A stretch of DNA of 64,000 nt from Clostridium sp. D33t1_170424_F3 (GTDB taxonomy: Bacteria > Bacillota > Clostridia > Oscillospirales > Acutalibacteraceae). The notes under the pieces were generated by a model. That model searched no databases and was not told where the DNA came from. It was given only the letters and a program-made list of their open reading frames with translations. Of this stretch, positions 13,344 through 26,644 are shown piece after piece. The stretch is from positions 1 through 64,000 of the forward strand of contig NZ_JADPEG010000019.1 in the NCBI RefSeq assembly GCF_015667585.1. The letters are read 5' to 3'. A program made the translations under genes and the position numbers. How positions within the stretch are numbered: the stretch's first letter is position 1; the number at the start of each line of letters is the position of its first letter.

Positions 13344-13397
13344 AGATAAAAAGAATTGGTAAATGACTGGAAAACCGTGCGGAAAGCGGGTGGAAGC

Positions 13398-15104
13398 TTG
13401 AAGATTCATATCTCATCAAAAAAACAGATTATACAGGTGCTGATGCTGTTTGTCATTCCGCTTGTGGCCTTCCTTGGGGTGTACAATTTTTACACGGTGC
13501 GCGCCATGAACGACCGGATTGCGGAGAGCGGCAGAAGTACGGTTTATCTCTACCAGACTTCTCTGGAAAAGGACCTGGGGGATATCGATATTTTTATGGC
13601 CAACCTGGTCGCCGGCGACGCTAATTATCAGCAGCTGCGCTACCGCATGGACCCGATGGAGGCGCATCTCTGCGCCAAGGAGATCACGGACCGCTACCAG
13701 GAACTGATTGCCACCAAGCAGATCATCGGCGGCATGTTCCTGTTTTTGGACCGGAACGGGCTCTACCGGGAGCGCTACGGCGGCTCCTACTCCTATGAGC
13801 AGAAGACCGCGCTGGAGCAGTACCTGCGGGAGCTGACGCGGGGCGAACCGGCCGTTGGCAAGGATTGGTTTGTGCACCGGGTGGGGGAAATCCCCTTCCT
13901 GCTGCGCGTGCTGGGAAGCGACGGCGCGTACAGTATCTGCGCGGTGGATTTAAACCGGCTGTCCAAACCGCAGGACACGGCGGACTATGAGAACGGCGTC
14001 CTGTTTTATGCGGACGGGGAGGGCGGGATTCTCACCGCACAGGATTGGGCGGCGGAGATCGGCGTCGATCCCGCGGCGCATGCGCGGGACCCGTACTACC
14101 TCACCCGCGGACCGCAGGAATACCTGGCGGTACAGAGCTTCTCCGAAGCGGCGGGCGTCTGGTTTGTCTACCTGCTTCCTTATAAAGGCATTTTGAACCA
14201 CCTGGATTTTGTCCAGATTCTGCTGCTGGCGGTTTCCGTGTTCATCCTGGTTTTGATTCCCATCAGCTATTACCTGCTCAAGCGGCTGTTCTTCAGCCCG
14301 ATGGAGCAGCTGGTGAAGACGATGAACGCCATCAAAAGCGGCGACCTGGAAGCGAAAATGGACAGCGATTACCGCATCGTGGAATTTAAGCAGGTGAGCG
14401 ATACCTTTAATGAGATGATGGGGGAGATCAAGGCGCTGAAAATCTCCGCCTATGAGAAGGAACTGGAGCTGCAGCAGGCGCAGTTGCAATATTTGCAGAT
14501 TCAAATCCGGCCGCACTTTTTCCTGAACTGCCTGAAAAACCTGTATGCCCTGGCGCAGGAGCGGCAGTTCGGGCAGATTCAGCAGATGATCCTGGCGCTG
14601 TCCGACTATCTGCGCTGTCTGTTCCGCGACAATATGAGGCTGGTGCCGCTGGAGGACGAGCTGCGCAATGTGCGCAACTACATGTGTTTGCAGCAGATGA
14701 GCGCCTCCAGCCCGCCGGTCTGCGAGGTGGACGCGGAGGAAGGGTTGGCGTCGTTCCAGATCCCGCCGCTGTCCCTGCTGACCTTTGTGGAAAACTCCGT
14801 CAAGCACGCGTCCCTGCCGGGCGAGGAGCTGCGGATCACGATCCGGGCGATCCGCCTGGAGACGGAAGACGCAAAATATGTCAACCTCTCCGTGACCGAC
14901 AACGGCAGCGGGTTCCCGCCGGACCGGCTGGAAGAGCTCAACGGCGCGGGAGAGATCGCATACAGCGAACAATGTGTGGGCATTATGAACGTCAAGCACC
15001 GCTTTGCGCTGCTGTACCAGGGGAAATGCGTGTTTTCCTTCCGCAATCTGCAGAAGGGTTCCAGCATAGAGATTTTTATACCGGATGAGGAGGAAAGAAA
15101 ATGA
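13398..15104 (+). CDS. YesM-type sensor histidine kinase
   Basis: A membrane kinase of about 568 residues: transmembrane segment about 12-32, an extracellular sensor of about 240 residues, transmembrane segment about 272-295, HAMP linker, phospho-acceptor H373 in QIRPHFFLN, then an ATPase domain with VENSVKHA and DNGSGFP. The family usually has NPHFLYN; here the N before PH is R and YN is LN. The start is a TTG following GGGTGGAAG; no in-frame ATG precedes the membrane segment. The stop overlaps the regulator start by 4 bp (ATGA), so the pair is translationally coupled. Confidence 0.88.
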   Translation: MKIHISSKKQIIQVLMLFVIPLVAFLGVYNFYTVRAMNDRIAESGRSTVYLYQTSLEKDLGDIDIFMANLVAGDANYQQLRYRMDPMEAHLCAKEITDRYQELIATKQIIGGMFLFLDRNGLYRERYGGSYSYEQKTALEQYLRELTRGEPAVGKDWFVHRVGEIPFLLRVLGSDGAYSICAVDLNRLSKPQDTADYENGVLFYADGEGGILTAQDWAAEIGVDPAAHARDPYYLTRGPQEYLAVQSFSEAAGVWFVYLLPYKGILNHLDFVQILLLAVSVFILVLIPISYYLLKRLFFSPMEQLVKTMNAIKSGDLEAKMDSDYRIVEFKQVSDTFNEMMGEIKALKISAYEKELELQQAQLQYLQIQIRPHFFLNCLKNLYALAQERQFGQIQQMILALSDYLRCLFRDNMRLVPLEDELRNVRNYMCLQQMSASSPPVCEVDAEEGLASFQIPPLSLLTFVENSVKHASLPGEELRITIRAIRLETEDAKYVNLSVTDNGSGFPPDRLEELNGAGEIAYSEQCVGIMNVKHRFALLYQGKCVFSFRNLQKGSSIEIFIPDEEERK

Positions 15105-16690
15105 CCGTCCTTGTAATTGACGATCAGATCAATGTGGTCAGCGGCATTGTATCCGGCGTGGACTGGGTCGCCGTGGGTGTGGACCGGGTCCTGCAGGCGT
15201 ACAATGCCGCGGAAGCAAAGGAAATCCTGCGGCATCAAAAGGTCGATATGATGCTCTGTGACATTGAAATGCCCGTGGAGTCCGGACTGGACCTGTTCCG
15301 CTGGGTGCGCGATCAGAAGATGGAGACGGAATGCATCTTCCTGACGGCGCATGCGGATTTTGATTACGCCAAGGAGGCCGTGCGGCTGGGCGGTCTGGAC
15401 TACATTCTGCAGCCCGCGCGCTATGCAGATATTCAGGCGGCGGTCCTGCGCGCCGCGCACCGGATCGAGACAAAAAAAGAGCTGCAGGCGTACTCTTCCT
15501 ATGGGAAAATGATGGAGCGCCGCCGGGATGTGCTGATGGAAGGGCTGCTCAAAAACTGGTTTTTGGGGGAAGAGGTCAGCCTGCCGCGGCTGCTGGAGGA
15601 TTTTCAAAAGCTTGAAATTCAGATCGACGATGTGACGCCGGTCTATTTTACATTGATACAGGTGCTGCGCTGGGAGGACGCCGCCGCCGTATGGAGCGCG
15701 GAGCTGCTAAAATATGCGTTTCTGAACGTCCTGTCGGAGCTGTTCGGCGAGCATGGGCAAAAGCTTCTGCTGATCCAGTTGGACCACTGCAATTTTGCGT
15801 TTCTTTCCTATGCGGACGGGCCCCGGTTGATGGAAGAGGAGGCGCTCCGCACGCTCTTGGAACACTTTTTACAGGTGTGCCGGGCGCATTTTCACTGTGA
15901 CGCCGCGTGCTATACCGGTCCTCGGCTGACGCCGCCGGAGCTGACGGAGCGCGCGCGGATTTTGTACGGCTGCCGCAGAGGCAATGTGGCGCTGGCCGCC
16001 AAGGTGTTTATCTGGGGGAGTATCGCGGATGCGCCGCGGGGGACTCTCGCGGCGCCGGAGTGGAAGCGTTGGGAGGAGCGTCTGGTCCGCGGCGACGCGG
16101 AGGCGGTCCGCGCGGAGGCCTGCGGATGGTTGGACGGAGCGGCCGGGGACGGGCGGCTGAATGCCGAAACGCTCCAGCGGTTTTATCAGGCGTTCCTCCA
16201 GATGCTCTGCGCCGCCGGCGAACCGGCAAACATCCCGGCGGATGCGTTCCTGCCGGGCCGGCAGCTGTTTGAACGCTCCCCGCACGAGGCCTTTACAATC
16301 GACGGCGTCAAGCTGTGGATTGAATCGGCTGTCCAGCCCTTTGCGCGCGCCGGACAGCCGGCGGACGTCAGGAGCCAGGTGGAGCAGATCAAACAATATA
16401 TAGAGACGCACATGGAGCGGGATATCCGCCGCTCGGACATCGCGGAGGCGTTCTACTTAAATCCGGATTATCTCTCCCGCCTGTTTAAAAAGGAAACCGG
16501 CGTACAGCTCAAGGACTATATTGTGGCGGAGAAAATGAAGGCGGCCCAGACGCTGCTGCGCACCACGGATCTGCCGGTCAGCATGGTTGCCGTCCGGGTG
16601 GGGTATTCCAATTTTTCCCACTTTTCGCAGGTGTATAAGAAGGCGATGGGCAGGACGCCGGCGGAGGACCGTGCCGCCGCGCGGGAATAG
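15101..16690 (+). CDS. AraC-type response regulator with atypical receiver
   Basis: A 529-residue regulator: receiver domain 1-115 with acidic pair D7/D8 and phospho-acceptor D54 in LCDIEMP, a variable middle, and an AraC-type double helix-turn-helix at about residues 430-525 ending in FSHFSQVYKKAMGRTP. The conserved receiver lysine is replaced by glutamine (Q104 in YILQPAR), which may change how phosphorylation is transmitted. It is coupled to the kinase upstream and followed by an array of direct repeats and a sugar-binding lipoprotein, its likely target. Confidence 0.9.
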   Translation: MTVLVIDDQINVVSGIVSGVDWVAVGVDRVLQAYNAAEAKEILRHQKVDMMLCDIEMPVESGLDLFRWVRDQKMETECIFLTAHADFDYAKEAVRLGGLDYILQPARYADIQAAVLRAAHRIETKKELQAYSSYGKMMERRRDVLMEGLLKNWFLGEEVSLPRLLEDFQKLEIQIDDVTPVYFTLIQVLRWEDAAAVWSAELLKYAFLNVLSELFGEHGQKLLLIQLDHCNFAFLSYADGPRLMEEEALRTLLEHFLQVCRAHFHCDAACYTGPRLTPPELTERARILYGCRRGNVALAAKVFIWGSIADAPRGTLAAPEWKRWEERLVRGDAEAVRAEACGWLDGAAGDGRLNAETLQRFYQAFLQMLCAAGEPANIPADAFLPGRQLFERSPHEAFTIDGVKLWIESAVQPFARAGQPADVRSQVEQIKQYIETHMERDIRRSDIAEAFYLNPDYLSRLFKKETGVQLKDYIVAEKMKAAQTLLRTTDLPVSMVAVRVGYSNFSHFSQVYKKAMGRTPAEDRAAARE

Positions 16691-16747: not shown

Positions 16748-16858
16748 GTCGGATTTTTGACAGCGCGCGGGTCGGATTTATGACAGTGCGGGTTTCAGCC
16801 GGTTTTTAAACAGGGGAACAGGTCATTTTTATAACATCGGAGGTCGGTATTTTGGCAG
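16748..16858 (+). promoter_or_regulatory. Direct-repeat array, probable regulator-binding sites
   Basis: GTCGGATTTTTGACAG (16748-16763) recurs as GTCGGATTTATGACAG (16771-16786) and GTCGGTATTTTGGCAG (16843-16858), with a weaker copy at 16822-16837. Spacings of 23 and 21 bp are about two helix turns, as for AraC-family sites. The array lies between the regulator gene and the lipoprotein gene. Confidence 0.6.
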
Positions 16859-16977
16859 AAATCGAAAAGCAAATGAAGTACAATATAAACACAGTGAATC
16901 ATAAAAACCCAGTAAATAAGAAGACCGTCAAAGAATGCGGAGGATGTGCCCGGCGGACGATTGGGAAAGGACCAGGT

Positions 16978-18495
16978 ATGAAATGGGAAAAAAGAGGCTT
17001 GCCGCTTTTGCTTGCCGCCCTGCTGTCGTTCTGCCTGTCCGCGTGCACACAGCCCGGCGGAGAACCGCAGAGCAGCGGGGACCCGTCGTCCTCCGATGAG
17101 GCGTTTTACACGGTGGACGTTTATGCGCTGGGGACGGCGGCGGACCCAATCCGGGCGGAGATCGAAGCGCGGGCCAACGAAATCCTAGAGGAAGCCTGCG
17201 GCGCGCATGTGCGGCTGCGCTATCTCGGGAGCAAGGAAAACTGTTTGCAGCAGGTGAAGCTGGCAGTTTCCACGGGGGAAAAGTGCGACCTGTTCCCGTC
17301 GTTTGAAATCGGCGTGGGCGCAATGGTCAACAACAACCTGATTCTGCCGCTCAACGAGTACCTGCCACTCTGCGGCGCGGAAATCCGGGAGGATATCCCC
17401 GCGGAGGACTGGGCCTGCGTTACCATGAACGGCAAAATCTGCGGCGTGCCGATCAACCGGGAGAAGGCGAACGGACGCGGCTTTGTCTATCGGAAAGACC
17501 TTGCGGAAGAATTGGGCGTCGATCCGGATTCCATCCGGACGATGGACGATCTGGAAGCGCTGCTCATAAAAGTGCGGGACGCGTACCCGGACATGTACCC
17601 CATCGTCACCAGCACGGGGCTGGCAAGGCTGCCTTTGCCGTACGACCGGCTGGGAGACAGCCTCGGCGTGTTGGAGGACAGTTTTTCCGACAGCACCCGG
17701 GTGGTCAACCTCTTTGAGACGGATTCCTACCGTGCGATGGTGGAACTGCAATGGAAATGGGCCAATATGGGGTTGATGATGCCGGACGGCTCCAGCAATA
17801 CCAGCAATGAGTTTGCGCTGATCCGCGCGGGCAAGGGCTTCGGCCATTTTGCAAACGTCAAGCCCGACAAGGAGCGCGAAACCACCAGCGGCACGGGATA
17901 CCCCACTGCGATTTTTCAGATCGTGCCGCCCTACAGCGAATCGACGCTGGTTTCCTCCATGTGGAACATCTGCTCCACCAGCGGGAACCCGGAAAAGGCC
18001 ATGCTGGTGCTCAATGAAATGTACACCAATCCGGAGCTGGCCAACCTGTTTACCTATGGGATTGAAGGAAAGACATACCGGGTGGTCGACCGGGAAAAAC
18101 GGCTGATCGGGCGGATGGAGGACTGGGATATAAAGCAGAACCAGTATTCCTTTGCCATCTGGTCCTGGCCGAACGAATTGCTTGTGGACGTGTGGGAAGG
18201 CGACCCGCCGGATATCTGGCAGCGGGTGCAGCGGTATAACAGCGAAGCGCGTCCGTCCCCCGCGCGGGGGTTTGTCTGGGATGACACGAAGGTGCTGGGG
18301 CAGGTGACCGCCTGCACCATCGTGCTGGATAGATACCGGGACGCATTGGAATGCGGGAGCCTCGACCCGGCGACGGCGCTGCCGTGCATGAACGAGGAAC
18401 TGCGGGCGGCGGGCATTGACGAAATCGTCAGGGAAAAGCAGGCCCAGCTGGACCGCTGGATCGTACAGCAGAAAACACCCGGCGCAGCCGGTTAA
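16978..18495 (+). CDS. Extracellular carbohydrate-binding lipoprotein (LipO/DUF3502-like)
   Basis: A 505-residue type 1 solute-binding protein. The signal peptide ends in a textbook lipobox LSAC with C23. The body resembles the LipO group of oligosaccharide-binding proteins, and the C-terminal segment ELRAAGIDEIVREKQAQLDR is characteristic of their DUF3502-like end. No permease genes (LplB/YtcP type) lie beside it, so it must use a transporter encoded elsewhere or act as a surface sensor for the kinase pair upstream. The ATG at 16978 has AAAGGA and directly precedes the signal peptide; the longer upstream frame is untranslated leader. Confidence 0.85.
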   Translation: MKWEKRGLPLLLAALLSFCLSACTQPGGEPQSSGDPSSSDEAFYTVDVYALGTAADPIRAEIEARANEILEEACGAHVRLRYLGSKENCLQQVKLAVSTGEKCDLFPSFEIGVGAMVNNNLILPLNEYLPLCGAEIREDIPAEDWACVTMNGKICGVPINREKANGRGFVYRKDLAEELGVDPDSIRTMDDLEALLIKVRDAYPDMYPIVTSTGLARLPLPYDRLGDSLGVLEDSFSDSTRVVNLFETDSYRAMVELQWKWANMGLMMPDGSSNTSNEFALIRAGKGFGHFANVKPDKERETTSGTGYPTAIFQIVPPYSESTLVSSMWNICSTSGNPEKAMLVLNEMYTNPELANLFTYGIEGKTYRVVDREKRLIGRMEDWDIKQNQYSFAIWSWPNELLVDVWEGDPPDIWQRVQRYNSEARPSPARGFVWDDTKVLGQVTACTIVLDRYRDALECGSLDPATALPCMNEELRAAGIDEIVREKQAQLDRWIVQQKTPGAAG

Positions 18496-18679: not shown

Positions 18680-21600
18680 ATGAAAAAGATGCATCGATCG
18701 ATTTTATCGCTTCTTTTGACCCTGACCATGCTGTGCAGCGTCTGTACAAGCGCGTTTGCAGCCACAGCGGAACCGGTCCAGGCAGAAGCGGGGGACGGCA
18801 TCGTCCAGATTGAAAACGGTCCGATCCAGGGCGTCCCGTCCGACACGGAGGGCGTTACAGTATTCAAAGGCGTTCCGTTTGCACAGCCCCCGGTGGGCGA
18901 CCTGCGCTGGAAAGCGCCGCAGGACCTGGAAGAAACCTGGACAGACGTGCGCGTCTGCGACGAGTGGGGCAACCAGGCAATGCAGCCCGAGAATCTGAAC
19001 CCTGTCGGAGAGTTCTGGGGCGATGAGTTCTATTTTGACGAAGACTACAATCCGGAGATCAGCGAAGACTGTCTCTATTTAAATGTGTATAAGCCCGAAA
19101 ACGCGGACGTCGAGGACCTGCCCGTCATGGTGTGGATCCACGGCGGCGGTTACGACCACGGAAATGCTTCCGAGATGGAGTTCAACGCCTCCAAGCTGGC
19201 GGCGAAGGGCATCATCGTGGTGTGCATCCAGTACCGCGTCAACGTGTTCGGCTTCCTGGCACTGCCGGAGCTGAGCGAGGAAAACAACGGCGTTTCCGGC
19301 AACTACGGTACGCTGGACCAGGTCAAGGCGCTGGAATGGGTCAGCCAGAACATCGAAGCCTTTGGCGGAGATAAAGATAACGTGACCATCTGCGGCCAGT
19401 CCGCGGGCGCGATGTCCGTGACGGCCCTGCTTTCCACCCCGTTGACCAAGGGCCTTTACAACCGCGCGATCATCCAGAGCGGATTCAGCGGCTATGCGGC
19501 CCCGGGCAGCTATACCACGCTGGAAAAGAAAGAGGAGACCTGCCAGGCGGCGATTGAAAAGGCGTTTGGCGAAGGCGCCACGCTGGAAAAACTGCGCGCG
19601 ATGGATGCGAAGGAGTTTATGGATTCCGGCGTTTACAGCGCCCTGAAGAGCGCGGCCGGCAGCAACACGCTGGACGGCTATGTGTTTACCGAAGAATCCA
19701 TCGACCTGACAAGGGACGGCGCGCTGGACGGCATCGACGTGATGATCGGCGGCACGGCGGACGAGTACACCTCCCTCGCGGGCAATCCGGACGGGGAGAT
19801 GGATATTGAAGCGTTCCATGCTTCCAAAGAAAAACAGTACGGCGATCTTTACAACCGCAGCATCTATAACCCGCGGACAGAAAAAGAAGCATACCGCCTG
19901 AACTTCCGCGCCATCAGCGACGGAAGCCTGGCAAAATACCGCATTTCCGCGGAATATGGCAAGACGCATAACGAAGACCACAACGCGTATGTTTATTACT
20001 TCGATCACGACCTAGCCCCGCACGATCCGGAAATCGTGGGCGGCCGCGACGAGGATTTCTACGGTTCGTTCCATTCCAGCGAGCTGTGGTTTATGTTTAA
20101 CTCCATGCGCGACGGCGTGGAAGGCCAGCGCCTGTGGACGGAAGACGACCACTATCTGGCGGATACGATGTCCTCCTACTGGGCGAACTTTGTGAAGACC
20201 GGCGACCCGAACGGCGAAGGCCTGCCCAGCTGGGAAGAGTGCACCTCCGATACGGACGGCGCGTTCATGCACTTTAAGGATACGGAAGACGGCGCGGCGG
20301 CGGTCTGCACGACCAGGAGCGATTTCCCGGCCCGCGACCGTTTAATGATGAAGTTCAATATGAACTCCCTCGGCCTGACGGAAAACGACCTGCTTCTGCC
20401 GTATGCGATCCCGTTCGGCGACGTTCCGGCGGAATTGGTGACAGAGGTCCAGGAGGAAGGCCAGCGCGTGGTAGAAGTCAACCTGACCTACGACGGCGCG
20501 GTCGATCCGGACAGCGTTTCCCAAAACGACTATAAAGTCAAGGCGTCCCTGACCTACGGCGACGGCAAGAGCGATATGGACGGCTACCGCACCATCACGG
20601 ATGTAACGGTCAACGGGAACGTCGTTACGCTCAAGCTTGACCCGGACGACGCGGCGGCAACCACCAGTTTCTACAACGGCACCACCAACGTGTACGACAT
20701 TTCCTATCTGATCACCCAGAAGGGCGAGATCGAGACGGACAACGGCACGGTGGAGCCGGCAAAGTACCGCAGCACAAAGATTACCAATCAGATTGTGGAC
20801 GATTTCCAGAGCGGAAGCGTCAGCAATGAAAAAGGCAAGACCATCAACTTCAAATACTACGATCCGATTGCATCCGCGGATGCGGCAGCGGACGGCAGCT
20901 ATCCGCTGATCCTGTTCCTGCACGGCAGCGGCGAGAGCGGCAGCAACAACCTGTCCCAGATCATCGCCAACAAGGGCGCCGTCTCCTGGGTGGAGCCGGA
21001 CCGTGTGGCGCAGAATCCGGTCTATGTCCTGGCCCCGCAGTGCCCGACGGCGCGCGAAGGCTGGATCAATCAGGACAACCAGGACCTGGTCATCAAAATG
21101 GTGGACGAATTTGCGGCGACCCATAATGTGGATACCAGCCGCATCTATATTCAGGGCCTGTCCATGGGCGGTATCGGCACCTGGAAGATGATTCTGGATT
21201 ACCCGACCAAGTTCGCGGCGGCGATCCCGATCTGCGGACGCGTTCCCAGCGGCAGCGATTACAACTACTTTACCGACAACAACGGCGCGGCGTTTGACGC
21301 GCTGGCGGAGTTCCCGATCTGGGTGGCGCACGCGGAGAACGACCCGTCCGTCAATATCGCGGGTTCCAGAGAGGCGGTTGCGGCGCTGAAGGCGCATGGC
21401 AACACCTCGGTCAAATTCTATGAGTATCTGCCGGGCGCAATCGTCCCGAACGCGCACCACAGCTGGAAAGCGGTCTATGAAGACCAGGAAATCTACAACT
21501 GGCTGTTCGAGCAGAATACAGCGAGAAACCACAACCCGGAACACCCCCTGAAGACCCAGTACACCACATGGGAATACGAAGGGGTACAAGCGATCCTGGA

Positions 21601-24600
21601 CTACGACGTGGACCCGATGTGGGTCTTGACCAACGGCGACCGTGCGGTTCTCATTGATACCGGCATGGGAAAAGGCGACTTGTATGGCAAACTGAAATCC
21701 ATTCTCCCGGACAGCGTCAAGAAGATCGACGTCCTGCTTACGCACCGTCACGGCGACCATATCGGACAAATTGCAGATTTCCAGAACCGCGACGACGTTG
21801 AGCACGTATATATCGGTGCGGCGGACGCGGAAACAGTGATTCCCCGCATGGGAGACGATGCGGACAAGGTTGTCCCGGTCAACGACGGCGATAAGATCCC
21901 GTTTGGCAATAAGTCCTTCACGGTAATCGACGTCCCGGGCCATACCACAGGTTCGGTTGTATACCTCCTGGAAGATAAACTGTTCACAGGCGACGCGATC
22001 GGCACCGGCTATGTCTGGATGCAGATCGGGGACCGCTCCATCGAAGAGTATGTCGATTCCCTGCAGCACCTGAACGACGCGATCGGCGACCGCGACCTGA
22101 CCGTCTACGGCGGCCATACACAGTACCGCGGTAAAATGACCGATCAGTATGTGCGCGACATTCTCGAATGTGCAAAGGGCATCGTGGACGGCACCATCGA
22201 GACCAAGCAGTATCTGCGCGGCAGCGTGCGCGACGCAAGACAGGCGACCTACGGCACGGCCTCCATTGCCTATCGCCCCGATTGGGTCCGGAAGGACAGC
22301 ATCTGGGCGGACCTGACCACGGAAGTGTTCGACGACGGACAGAAGGTCGTTTCCGCGACCATCACCTATCCGAGCGAGCTTGACGCGGCAAAGGCAAGCC
22401 AGATTGCAAGATCCGCATTCCAGGTCGAGGCGCGCCTCACAGCGGGCACAGAATCCTTCAATAACGTCGGCATGCGGACCATTTCCGACGTTAAAGTCAA
22501 CGGCAAGACGATCACCCTGACCTTTGACCAGAACGACGGAATGGGAGCCACCAGCTACTTTGATTATATGAGCTTCCAGACCTCCATGTACGACCTGGCC
22601 TATACCATCCGCCAGACAAAAGACCTGCCGCTTGCGAACGGCGACACCGCCAAGGCGGCGACATGCAAGCAGCGCTCCGTCAAGAATCTGGTTGTGGACG
22701 ACTTCCAGACGGCGAGCGTCAGCGACGGCACAATGACCATCCCATACCGCTATTATGACCCGGTTGCGGTCAACAAGGTGGACGACGAGGGCGAATACCC
22801 GCTGATCCTGTTCCTGCACGGCGCGGGCGAATCCGGCACAAACAACAACGCACAGCTGATCGCCAACAAGGGCGCGGTCGCCTGGGCGGAAGCAGACCGC
22901 ATCGCACAGAATCCGTGCTATATCCTGGCGCCGCAGAGCCCCGGCTTCTCCGTCGGCGGCTGGCAGGGCGAAGGAATGCCCCAGCTGCTGATGAAGATGA
23001 TCGAGGACTTCGCCAAGGCGCATCCGCAGGTGGATATGGACCGCATCTATATTGAAGGCATGTCCATGGGCGGCATGGGAACCTGGAACATGATCCTGAC
23101 CTATCCGGACTTCTTCGCGGCGGCGATCCCGATCTGCGGCATGGTCAACGATTCTGTCTATGAGACAGACAACGGCGCGGCGTTTGACGCGCTGGCGAAC
23201 CTGCCCATCTGGGTGGCGCACGCGGAAAACGACACCACGGTCAACGTCTCCGGTTCGCAGAAGGCGGTTGCGGCGCTGAAGGCGCACGGCAACACCTCCG
23301 TCAAATATTATGAGTACCTCGAAGGCTCCATCACTCCCGACCCGCACCACAGCTGGAAGGCCGTGTACGCGGACCAGGAAATCTACAACTGGCTGTTTGA
23401 ACAGAATAAAGCCAGAACCGATTACGGCAAGATCAACCCGAAGACCCTGTATACGCTCAAGGATTACGGCGATGGCGTACAGGCAATCTGGGACTACGAT
23501 GTAGACCCGATGTATGTCATGGTCAACGGAGACCGTGCAGTGCTCATCGATACCGGCATGGGCGCTGGAAACCTTTACGATACCATGAAAGCCATGCTGC
23601 CGGAGAGCGTTAAGAAAATTGATGTTCTGATTTCGCATGGACACGGCGACCATACTGGACAGGCGTACGATTTTGCAGAGCGTGAGGACGTGGAACATAT
23701 CTATGTCGGCACGCGCGATGAAGCGACTCTGAAGTCTGCCTTGACAAGAAGAGGAAAAGACACCTCTAAAGTTACGCCGGTCAACGACGGCGATAAGATT
23801 CCGTTTGGTGGCAAATCGTTCCAGGTCATTGACATCTATGGTCATACGGCAGGCTCGGTTGCCTTCCTGATTGACGACAAGCTCTTCACCAGCGACGCGA
23901 TCGGCTCCGGTTACGTCTGGATGCAGATCGGCGTGTGCTCCATCGAAGAATATGTCGATTCCCTGCAGCACCTGAACGATGCAGTTGCCGGTATGGACCT
24001 GACGGTCTACGGCGGCCATGCACAGTTCCGCGGCACCATGACCGACCAGTATGTCCGCGACATCCTCGCATGCGCGAAGGGCATTGTGGACGGATCCATC
24101 GTTGGCACACAGTACCTGCGCGGCAATGTGCGCGACGCGAAGGTTGCAACCTATGGAACCGCTTCCATCGTTTATGACCCGCGCCGCATCCTCAAGGACG
24201 GCATCGGCGCGGAGCTCACCACCGAGGTGAAGGACGACGGCCAGAAGGTCATCCAGGCTTCCATCACATATGAGAATGAGATCGATCCGGTTTCCGTTTC
24301 CAAGGCAACCTATCAGGTGCAGGCGACGCTGTCTGCAAGCAATCCGAAGTTCGATCAGATCGGCCTGCGCACCGTGACGGACGTCAAGGTGGACGGCAAG
24401 ACCGTGACCATCACACTGGATCCGGCGGATGAAGAGGCGGTTACCAGTTATTACGACGGCAAGGTGACCAGCACATACAACCTCTCCTACAAGGTATCCC
24501 AGCTCACCGACATCAAGACGGCGGGCGGTGAAATCGTTCCGCGCGACGCGTTCCTGAGCAATTCCGTCAAGAATCTGGTTGTGGACGACTTCCAGAGCGG

Positions 24601-26644
24601 AAAGGTGACCAATGAGAGCGGCAAAACCATCAATTACCGCTATTTCGACCCGATTAAGTCCGCAGGCGTGGACAAGGACGGCAAATATCCGCTGGTCCTG
24701 TTCCTGCATGGCAGCGGCGAAAGCGGCAGCAACAACCTGTCCCACCTGATCGCCAACAAGGGCGCGGTCGCCTGGGCAGAGCGCACAGATATGAATCCGA
24801 CCTATGTATTGGCCCCGCAGTGCCCGACCGCAAGCGAAGGCTGGGTCAATGAAGCAAATGAAGCGCTCGTGATGCAGATGCTGGATGAATTCATCAAGGC
24901 AAACGCGGACACGATCGATACCAGCCGCATCTACATCCAGGGCTTGTCCATGGGCGGCATCGGCACTTGGAAGATCATCCTCGACCATCCGGACATGTTC
25001 GCGGCGGCGATGCCGATCTGCGGCAGAATTCCGAACGAATACTACGGCGACAAGGCGGAGCAGCTCAAGGGCATTATCAACATGCCAATCTGGGCGTTCC
25101 ATGCGGCGGACGACGACAGCGTCAATATCGAAGGCACCCGCCAGGCGGTTGCAGCGCTGAAGGCCGCCGGCAGCAAGTGCGTCAAGTTTGAAGAGTTCAC
25201 AGCGGGTTCCATCATCCCGTCTCACCACGTGTGGAAATACGTGTACAGCACTGGTACCCCGTATAACTGGCTCTTTGACCAGACGCTCGAAAGAAGCGAA
25301 AACCATACGATCAACCCGTCCATGAACTATGTCCATGAGACCGTCGAACCGGGCGTCAGCGTCATCAGAGACTATGAGCTGGGCCAGATCTGGGTCCTTG
25401 AGCAGGGCGACAAGGCGGTTGTGATCGACACCGGCATGGGCGCCGGCAATCTCTACGACTACATTGTCAACGAAGTCCTGGTAAACAAGAACGCGGACAT
25501 CGACGTAATCCTCACGCACAACCACGGCGATCACATCGGCTGTCTCGACGATTTTGTCGGACACGACCAGGTCAAGAATGTTTATGCCGGAGAAGGCGAC
25601 GAAGCTTCTATCATCAGGAAGATGGGCGCGGATGCCGGCAAGGTCAAAGTTGTGAAAGACGGCGACAAGATTGCCTTTGGCAGCGAGACAATGGAAGTGC
25701 TGGCGCTCCCGGGCCATACCGCCGGCTCCATTCTTCTTCTGCATGGTGACGACCTGTATACCGGCGACGCAGTCGGTTCCGGCGACCTGTGGATGCAGAT
25801 TGGCATGTGCTCGATCCAGACCTATATTCAGAATTTGAATAAGGTTCTTGACAAGCTGGGAGACCAGAAGCTGAATGTGCGCACCGGCCACGCGGAATAT
25901 CTGGAGCCCTTCACAGAAGAATATCTCCAGGAAATCATGAAGTGCGCGGAAGGCATCGTGGACGGCTCCATTACCCCGACAATCTATACGAGAAGAGATG
26001 CAAGCTATGCGACCTATGGCAGAGCAAACATCGTTTACTTCCCGTATCAGGTTATGGACGCGGATGTGACCGGCCTGAATGCGGCGATTCAGGATGCGGA
26101 ATCCCGCAGCTCCAGCAAGTATACTAGCGATTCCTGGGCGAAGCTGGCGGCAGCCGTCGCAGCGGCGAAGGCACTGCCCGCAACAGCCACACAGAATAAG
26201 GTAGACGCAGCCGAGCAGGCCATTAAAGACGCCATCATGGCGCTGGTTCCGAAGACCACTTCCAGCTCCTCCGGAGGCGGCTCCAAGACCGTGTATGTCT
26301 ATGAGAATGGCAGCTCCTATGGCAGCGATGGCATTGTGGGGACCACGCCGGGCGCCGGCACAGGAACCACAGCCGCCAGCGTGAAGTCCGATACCACACT
26401 GCCGTTTACTGTCCAGCGCGGCCAGGCGTACTGCTTCAAGATGACCGTTCTCAATGGCAACGGCGTAGCGCCGAGCTTCACCGTCGGTAACGGCGGCGTC
26501 TTCAAGACCCAGTTTGTCACCCAGATCGGCAACGATTATTACTTCCGTATTTGGGCGATCGGCAACGCAGGCCAGTCCACAGGCGTATATACCCAGCTGC
26601 CCGGACAGGCGGCCGTGCAGCATTGCACCGTGGCAGTCGCGTAA
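18680..26644 (+). CDS. Giant secreted multi-esterase with three tandem esterase/metallo-beta-lactamase modules
   Basis: A secreted protein of 2,654 residues. Order: signal peptide (1-27, cleavage after AFA); type-B carboxylesterase (about 35-570) with oxyanion motif H154-GGG, nucleophile S241 in GQSAG, E362 and H465; then three modules at 584-1209, 1210-1843 and 1844-2457. Each module has an EstA-type Ig-like domain, an alpha/beta-hydrolase with GLSMGG or GMSMGG (S828, S1462, S2090) and a metallo-beta-lactamase fold with HxHGDH (1022, 1653, 2280) plus the later GHT, GDA/SDA and GH motifs. A FIVAR-like helix pair (about 2463-2524), a Ser/Gly linker and a C-terminal beta domain follow. AAGGAGAG precedes the ATG. 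No LPXTG or SLH anchor is seen. Substrate unknown; acyl-ester or lactone hydrolysis on outside glycans or phenolics is inference. Confidence 0.9.
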   Translation: MKKMHRSILSLLLTLTMLCSVCTSAFAATAEPVQAEAGDGIVQIENGPIQGVPSDTEGVTVFKGVPFAQPPVGDLRWKAPQDLEETWTDVRVCDEWGNQAMQPENLNPVGEFWGDEFYFDEDYNPEISEDCLYLNVYKPENADVEDLPVMVWIHGGGYDHGNASEMEFNASKLAAKGIIVVCIQYRVNVFGFLALPELSEENNGVSGNYGTLDQVKALEWVSQNIEAFGGDKDNVTICGQSAGAMSVTALLSTPLTKGLYNRAIIQSGFSGYAAPGSYTTLEKKEETCQAAIEKAFGEGATLEKLRAMDAKEFMDSGVYSALKSAAGSNTLDGYVFTEESIDLTRDGALDGIDVMIGGTADEYTSLAGNPDGEMDIEAFHASKEKQYGDLYNRSIYNPRTEKEAYRLNFRAISDGSLAKYRISAEYGKTHNEDHNAYVYYFDHDLAPHDPEIVGGRDEDFYGSFHSSELWFMFNSMRDGVEGQRLWTEDDHYLADTMSSYWANFVKTGDPNGEGLPSWEECTSDTDGAFMHFKDTEDGAAAVCTTRSDFPARDRLMMKFNMNSLGLTENDLLLPYAIPFGDVPAELVTEVQEEGQRVVEVNLTYDGAVDPDSVSQNDYKVKASLTYGDGKSDMDGYRTITDVTVNGNVVTLKLDPDDAAATTSFYNGTTNVYDISYLITQKGEIETDNGTVEPAKYRSTKITNQIVDDFQSGSVSNEKGKTINFKYYDPIASADAAADGSYPLILFLHGSGESGSNNLSQIIANKGAVSWVEPDRVAQNPVYVLAPQCPTAREGWINQDNQDLVIKMVDEFAATHNVDTSRIYIQGLSMGGIGTWKMILDYPTKFAAAIPICGRVPSGSDYNYFTDNNGAAFDALAEFPIWVAHAENDPSVNIAGSREAVAALKAHGNTSVKFYEYLPGAIVPNAHHSWKAVYEDQEIYNWLFEQNTARNHNPEHPLKTQYTTWEYEGVQAILDYDVDPMWVLTNGDRAVLIDTGMGKGDLYGKLKSILPDSVKKIDVLLTHRHGDHIGQIADFQNRDDVEHVYIGAADAETVIPRMGDDADKVVPVNDGDKIPFGNKSFTVIDVPGHTTGSVVYLLEDKLFTGDAIGTGYVWMQIGDRSIEEYVDSLQHLNDAIGDRDLTVYGGHTQYRGKMTDQYVRDILECAKGIVDGTIETKQYLRGSVRDARQATYGTASIAYRPDWVRKDSIWADLTTEVFDDGQKVVSATITYPSELDAAKASQIARSAFQVEARLTAGTESFNNVGMRTISDVKVNGKTITLTFDQNDGMGATSYFDYMSFQTSMYDLAYTIRQTKDLPLANGDTAKAATCKQRSVKNLVVDDFQTASVSDGTMTIPYRYYDPVAVNKVDDEGEYPLILFLHGAGESGTNNNAQLIANKGAVAWAEADRIAQNPCYILAPQSPGFSVGGWQGEGMPQLLMKMIEDFAKAHPQVDMDRIYIEGMSMGGMGTWNMILTYPDFFAAAIPICGMVNDSVYETDNGAAFDALANLPIWVAHAENDTTVNVSGSQKAVAALKAHGNTSVKYYEYLEGSITPDPHHSWKAVYADQEIYNWLFEQNKARTDYGKINPKTLYTLKDYGDGVQAIWDYDVDPMYVMVNGDRAVLIDTGMGAGNLYDTMKAMLPESVKKIDVLISHGHGDHTGQAYDFAEREDVEHIYVGTRDEATLKSALTRRGKDTSKVTPVNDGDKIPFGGKSFQVIDIYGHTAGSVAFLIDDKLFTSDAIGSGYVWMQIGVCSIEEYVDSLQHLNDAVAGMDLTVYGGHAQFRGTMTDQYVRDILACAKGIVDGSIVGTQYLRGNVRDAKVATYGTASIVYDPRRILKDGIGAELTTEVKDDGQKVIQASITYENEIDPVSVSKATYQVQATLSASNPKFDQIGLRTVTDVKVDGKTVTITLDPADEEAVTSYYDGKVTSTYNLSYKVSQLTDIKTAGGEIVPRDAFLSNSVKNLVVDDFQSGKVTNESGKTINYRYFDPIKSAGVDKDGKYPLVLFLHGSGESGSNNLSHLIANKGAVAWAERTDMNPTYVLAPQCPTASEGWVNEANEALVMQMLDEFIKANADTIDTSRIYIQGLSMGGIGTWKIILDHPDMFAAAMPICGRIPNEYYGDKAEQLKGIINMPIWAFHAADDDSVNIEGTRQAVAALKAAGSKCVKFEEFTAGSIIPSHHVWKYVYSTGTPYNWLFDQTLERSENHTINPSMNYVHETVEPGVSVIRDYELGQIWVLEQGDKAVVIDTGMGAGNLYDYIVNEVLVNKNADIDVILTHNHGDHIGCLDDFVGHDQVKNVYAGEGDEASIIRKMGADAGKVKVVKDGDKIAFGSETMEVLALPGHTAGSILLLHGDDLYTGDAVGSGDLWMQIGMCSIQTYIQNLNKVLDKLGDQKLNVRTGHAEYLEPFTEEYLQEIMKCAEGIVDGSITPTIYTRRDASYATYGRANIVYFPYQVMDADVTGLNAAIQDAESRSSSKYTSDSWAKLAAAVAAAKALPATATQNKVDAAEQAIKDAIMALVPKTTSSSSGGGSKTVYVYENGSSYGSDGIVGTTPGAGTGTTAASVKSDTTLPFTVQRGQAYCFKMTVLNGNGVAPSFTVGNGGVFKTQFVTQIGNDYYFRIWAIGNAGQSTGVYTQLPGQAAVQHCTVAVA

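Follow-up and report, generated by a model that had tools for sequence, protein, structure and literature searches.

A predicted secreted polyenzyme of Anaeromassilibacillus that joins four serine-esterase and three metallo-beta-lactamase domains and ends in a domain shared with giant glycoside hydrolases

Each catalytic family found in the protein described here is already known, as are fused multicatalytic carbohydrate esterases (PMC7110780). The multimodular fused acetyl-feruloyl esterases of Bacteroidetes resemble our protein in carrying several esterase domains per enzyme for glycan de-decoration; they belong to another phylum and MBL (metallo-beta-lactamase) domains go unmentioned in the part of the report that was read, whereas our protein combines four serine esterase domains, drawn from two families, with three MBLs (PMC7110780). 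The Thermotoga-type EstA esterase (3doh/3doi) corresponds to the Ig-like plus alpha/beta hydrolase part over its whole chain, with an aligned triad and, in the fold match, 34% identity across 392 columns, but it is present as a single copy without MBL, type-B carboxylesterase, FIVAR or C-terminal domain. Type-B carboxylesterases represented by p-nitrobenzyl esterase (1qe3) share the full COesterase domain and its S-E-H triad, which here form only the N-terminal fifth of a polyenzyme. The glyoxalase II/B3-like branch of the MBLs has the same HxHxDH-H-D-H ligand set and gives the best PDB sequence matches, whereas our domains score far under its family cut-offs, are fused behind an esterase and have a conserved C-terminal hairpin of their own. 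Finally, cellulosomes and the cohesin-dockerin mucinolysome of Limousia, whose genomes were formerly labelled Anaeromassilibacillus or Acutalibacteraceae, place one short terminal module on many glycan-degrading enzymes (PMC12997984).

We analysed a window of 64,000 nucleotides (the whole stretch of DNA under study) in which a sequence-only reading had described a secreted protein of 2,654 residues. The open reading frame was confirmed at 18680-26644 (+); the frame extends upstream to a TTG at 18416, but its plausible start is the ATG at 18680, and the gene is kept in all four Anaeromassilibacillus genomes searched. Its first 28 residues (MKKMHRSILSLLLTLTMLCSVCTSAFAA, 18680-18763) look like a signal peptide, which supports the proposed secretion. 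A Pfam scan of the whole protein returned COesterase, three EstA_Ig_like domains, three alpha/beta-hydrolase regions, three Lactamase_B domains and one FIVAR, so that hydrolase and MBL folds were both found in all three modules. The type-B carboxylesterase domain (residues 40-536, 18797-20287) is followed by three modules of identical layout (EstA Ig-like domain, alpha/beta hydrolase, MBL), all on the forward strand: module 1 at residues 584-1209 (20429-22306; Pfam, motifs, 13-module alignment and AlphaFold2/Foldseek), module 2 at residues 1210-1843 (22307-24208) and module 3 at residues 1844-2457 (24209-26050), the latter two supported by motifs and the same alignment, which drew on seven genomes and included distant fusions. 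The earlier domain list was right about these catalytic domains and overlooked the two that follow, a FIVAR repeat (residues 2463-2522, 26066-26245; Pfam PF07554, E 8.6e-05; 29.1 bits when scanned alone, just below the gathering score of 29.2) and an 86-residue C-terminal domain (residues 2569-2654, 26384-26641).

The COesterase match (Pfam E 1.5e-101, 341 bits) contains a GQSAG motif at 239, and its S241/E362/H465 aligns with the triad of 1qe3, giving the S-E-H arrangement of a type-B carboxylesterase. The N-terminal domain of EstA (EstA_Ig_like, PF18435) was recognised in three stretches (123.5 bits, threshold 26.7), and G[LM]SMGG motifs lie at 826, 1460 and 2088 in modules 1, 2 and 3. The three triads (S828/D888/H926, S1462/D1518/H1556 and S2090/D2145/H2182) take their serine from GLSMGG, their aspartate from HAE.D and their histidine from H.SW at the positions of the 3doh triad, and these residues are invariant in the 13 aligned modules. 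3doh, a thermostable esterase, is also the closest solved structure to the Ig-hydrolase half by sequence (phmmer E 9e-53). An AlphaFold2 model of module 1 (mean pLDDT 87.1, pTM 0.73) retrieved it first with Foldseek over the Ig-plus-hydrolase part (E 6e-35), followed by LC-Est1C, an acetyl xylan esterase (6ne9) and feruloyl esterases, with 8bf3 as another fold neighbour. In the MBL domains of modules 1, 2 and 3 we located all the motifs that had been claimed: H.HGDH at 1022, 1653 and 2280, GHT at 1087, 1721 and 2345, GDA/SDA/GDA at 1104, 1738 and 2362, and the last histidine at 1146, 1780 and 2404. Each domain thus has the HxHxDH and downstream H, D and H ligands of the MBL superfamily (H1022, H1024, D1026, H1027, H1088, D1105 and H1146; H1653, H1655, D1657, H1658, H1722, D1739 and H1780; H2280, H2282, D2284, H2285, H2346, D2363 and H2404), and all seven ligands are invariant across the 13 modules. 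The proposal of seven catalytic centres and two chemistries in one chain, serine hydrolase and binuclear-metal MBL, is therefore borne out at the level of sequence: four ester-cutting and three metal-dependent centres look intact, and their activity is predicted.

The C-terminal domain, possibly more interesting than the esterase itself, belongs to no significant Pfam or NCBIfam family, gave chance-level matches only when its profile was run against PDB sequences and no match in phages, and we met no description of it in the literature searched. By profile search, it is present in 76 copies in this 3.2-Mb genome (the count of the search table) and in 51, 48 and 91 copies in three congeners; none was detected at E<=1e-6 in 36 other relatives, nor at 1e-5 outside the genus when 341 genomes of the class were sampled, and an order sample searched at E<=1 gave only weak, partial and chance-like matches (E 0.01-1). 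We read individually 41 open reading frames with the domain, 38 of them longer than 500 aa (hereafter large carriers). It ends the protein in 41/41, with 0-1 residue to spare, all 38 large carriers included. These 38 all have a hydrophobic N-terminal stretch (one of them weak) in a simple hydropathy scan, and Pfam detected FIVAR in 35. Their catalytic domains comprise GH2 (8 carriers), GH3 (7) and, in one or two each, GH31, GH97, GH127, NAGLU, NAGidase and others, accompanied by the accessory domains CBM6, CBM35, NPCBM and F5/8C. A secreted protein of 1,352 aa in the same genome (L100:3153-7211, contig C33, partly N) has repeated N-terminal domains, the same C-terminal domain and one EstA-like hydrolase without MBL, making it a second putative esterase of the carrier set.

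LPxTG was absent from the last 60 residues of all 38 large carriers and none is visible in the esterase/MBL protein, which leaves them without the mark of sortase substrates; Pfam found no dockerin in the esterase/MBL protein, which thus lacks the mark of a cellulosome-type component. Whereas cellulosomes and the Limousia mucinolysome rely on dockerin and cohesin, this genome has 76 unrelated Ig-like C-terminal domains, three dockerins in total (none on the contig of the window) and genome-wide a single sub-threshold cohesin match, none being over the cut-off. Given the cohesin-dockerin mucinolysome of Limousia, Anaeromassilibacillus seems to use a different solution. A model of the domain based on 39 sequences (pLDDT 88.6) is an Ig-like beta sandwich, whose best Foldseek match is to domains 4-5 of the S-layer protein SbsC (E 3e-4, TM 0.77 on the query); the score is modest and the fold a common one. 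Because most carriers are giant secreted glycoside hydrolases that lack LPxTG and the domain sits at the protein end, we suggest that it may mark a system, specific to the genus, that retains enzymes at the surface or assembles them by means other than cohesin and dockerin. More tentatively, and at somewhat less than even odds, the Ig-like domain and the FIVAR that precedes it could serve for targeting or docking in a surface-assembly system that is undescribed, confined to the genus and used instead of both cohesin-dockerin and sortase anchoring. Such a system would gather some 50-90 giant secreted glycan-degrading enzymes in each genome, including the esterase/MBL polyenzyme, which would then be the first glycan de-acylating enzyme to contain MBL hydrolases. 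The presence of this domain on dozens of giant enzymes offers a testable hypothesis of the way in which a Gram-positive gut bacterium that lacks a cellulosome keeps hold of the enzymes with which it degrades glycans.

To follow the architecture beyond the genus, we searched an order sample (394 genomes) with a profile of the full module (A1) and class and phylum samples (391 and 399 genomes) with a hydrolase-MBL profile (A2); absence counts are approximate, since the samples are draws with limited candidates per genome. Within the genus, the protein has three or two modules; elsewhere we found hydrolase-MBL fusions of 504 aa in the same family as the source genome (G249) and 508 aa in the same class (G773), and a 919-aa Ig-hydrolase-MBL-MBL protein with a signal-like N-terminus beside a GH1 gene in the same phylum (G1141, L094:1093-3852). 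The last is the nearest architecture found outside the genus. As these three fusions demonstrate, the hydrolase-MBL unit is real and rare, and it is not unique to the genus; its recurrence in distant lineages suggests a joint action of both activities on a single substrate. Other relatives include a 2,405-aa GH3-[EstA]-COesterase-[EstA] polyenzyme in an order-level relative (G165, L099:1-7217), EstA joined with cohesin and dockerin domains (G764) and a lone MBL relative near GH116 (G519). A plasmid collection gave only matches below 60% identity to the esterase/MBL chain, none over most of its length. Literature searches returned no description of an esterase-MBL fusion, and four serine-esterase plus three MBL domains in one chain is undescribed as far as we searched. 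The earlier statement that no such layout was described thus stands for that literature, but the gene is genus-wide, with two or three modules, and partial layouts exist in the fusions above and in the COesterase plus EstA polyenzyme of G165.

We favour, with a probability of about 0.6, a secreted multicatalytic, carbohydrate-esterase-like enzyme that de-acylates glycans outside the cell. After export through the signal peptide, the COesterase and the three EstA-type hydrolases would strip acyl groups (acetyl, hydroxycinnamoyl) from glycans, each MBL would use a binuclear metal centre to hydrolyse a further bond resembling an ester, lactone or thioester, and the FIVAR and C-terminal domains would keep the enzyme on the cell surface or hold it in a complex with giant glycoside hydrolases. 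In favour of this reading are the domains with their intact triads and the low dN/dS given below. The C-terminal domain is otherwise carried by GH2, GH3, GH31, GH97, GH127, NAGLU and NAGidase enzymes that also have CBMs and FIVAR, relatives of the module occur in carbohydrate settings (G165, G764, G1141 and G519), and the fold neighbours of the module include acetyl xylan and feruloyl esterases. Against this, Pfam recognised no carbohydrate-binding module or glycoside hydrolase in the protein itself. To our knowledge, none of the CAZy carbohydrate esterase families has an MBL fold, which makes a glycan role for these MBLs a guess; the substrate, once found, could show that the MBL superfamily takes part in breaking down glycans. 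Nothing in the analysis points to the processivity proposed earlier.

The alternative that survives best, although we consider it unlikely, is detoxification or signal quenching, in which the MBLs would be lactonases or beta-lactamases and the esterases, at the surface, would cut esters that are xenobiotics or signals. Promiscuity is common among type-B carboxylesterases, the solved MBL structures closest in sequence are those of glyoxalase II-like (HAGH) and B3 enzymes, with which our domains align, and the MBLs score weakly on class B and B3 beta-lactamase and glyoxalase II models. These scores nevertheless stay far under the curated cut-offs when modules are taken singly (47-55 bits against 100 for the class B core model, 25-32 against 240 for B3 and 44-60 against 200.8 for the GloB equivalog), so the domains cannot be filed as glyoxalase II or beta-lactamases, and the opening of lactones, which had been proposed earlier, becomes one option among several. 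The protein moreover belongs to a set of glycan-degrading giants and its relatives adjoin glycoside hydrolase genes, which speaks against detoxification and for the de-acylation of glycans.

It is slightly less probable still that some or all of the MBL domains are mainly structural or binding units. In its favour, the MBL of module 2 has accepted the replacement of a large segment between sister species: against A. senegalensis (L014:11879-13801), the proteins are only 34-50% identical in a stretch of about 100 columns (approximately 23560-23785, around and after the metal-binding motif) between flanks that are near 90-100% identical, and dS reaches 1.0 compared with 0.3-0.6 in the other domains. 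Recombination has probably exchanged this segment. The seven metal ligands are nonetheless invariant in 13/13 modules, distant fusions included, and MBL dN/dS is 0.08-0.21, both of which argue for catalysis. In the same comparison, dN/dS is 0.06-0.13 in each domain except the module 2 MBL (0.21); every domain is under purifying selection.

Scavenging of polyesters or lipids, with EstA-type domains acting as PHA-like depolymerases or lipases and MBLs finishing the oligomers, appears improbable. The whole protein exceeds the cut-off of the NCBIfam scl-PHA depolymerase model e_dPHAscl_type1 (NF050058; 169.9 against 150), but this score sums three copies and single modules reach 50-65 bits, for which reason the hydrolases cannot be filed as PHA depolymerases; CE1-like folds count PHB depolymerases among their broad neighbours.

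Tandem repeats are assembly-prone, yet an assembly or annotation artefact of collapsed or chimeric paralogues, an outcome that the sequence-only reading had named as fatal, is effectively refuted, because the modules have diverged (pairwise protein identity 59.7, 51.1 and 47.5%; alignable DNA about 68-76% identical, with at most 34 identical bases in a row), the gene recurs, with three or two modules, in independent assemblies, and purifying selection extends along the whole protein. The copy of A. senegalensis mt9 has three modules (93% identity in module 1), and two-module versions are found in Anaeromassilibacillus sp. An250 and Clostridia bacterium UC5.1-1E11. The 93% match to A. senegalensis is also the ground for placing the window in Anaeromassilibacillus. 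Judged by identity in the hydrolase and MBL, module 3 is the counterpart of the second module in the shorter proteins and modules 1 and 2 are both counterparts of the first, so the extra module most likely arose by duplication of the first module or was lost in the other lineage.

An antisense open reading frame of 2,093 aa at 20342-26623 (-) was rejected as a gene because the frame is split in A. senegalensis (817, 567 and 987 aa) and in UC5.1-1E11 (894 and 640 aa). It is also long in An250 (1,965 aa) and is probably a by-product of codon usage.

Directly upstream of the esterase/MBL gene lie a sensor histidine kinase (13356-15104, +; His_kinase/HATPase_c/HAMP), a response regulator with AraC-type output (15101-16690, +) and an extracellular solute-binding lipoprotein (16852-18495, +; SBP_bac_1 and DUF3502), the last adjoining the esterase gene in 4/4 genomes inspected. 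We saw no permease genes beside the lipoprotein and the kinase/regulator pair, which makes sensing a plausible role for the lipoprotein. Going by gene order, the lipoprotein and two-component system probably control the esterase by sensing a glycan product, and together the lipoprotein, the kinase/regulator pair and the esterase could form a three-part glycan sensor. Further upstream are genes that we take, from their sequence, to be galE-, galT- and galK-like.
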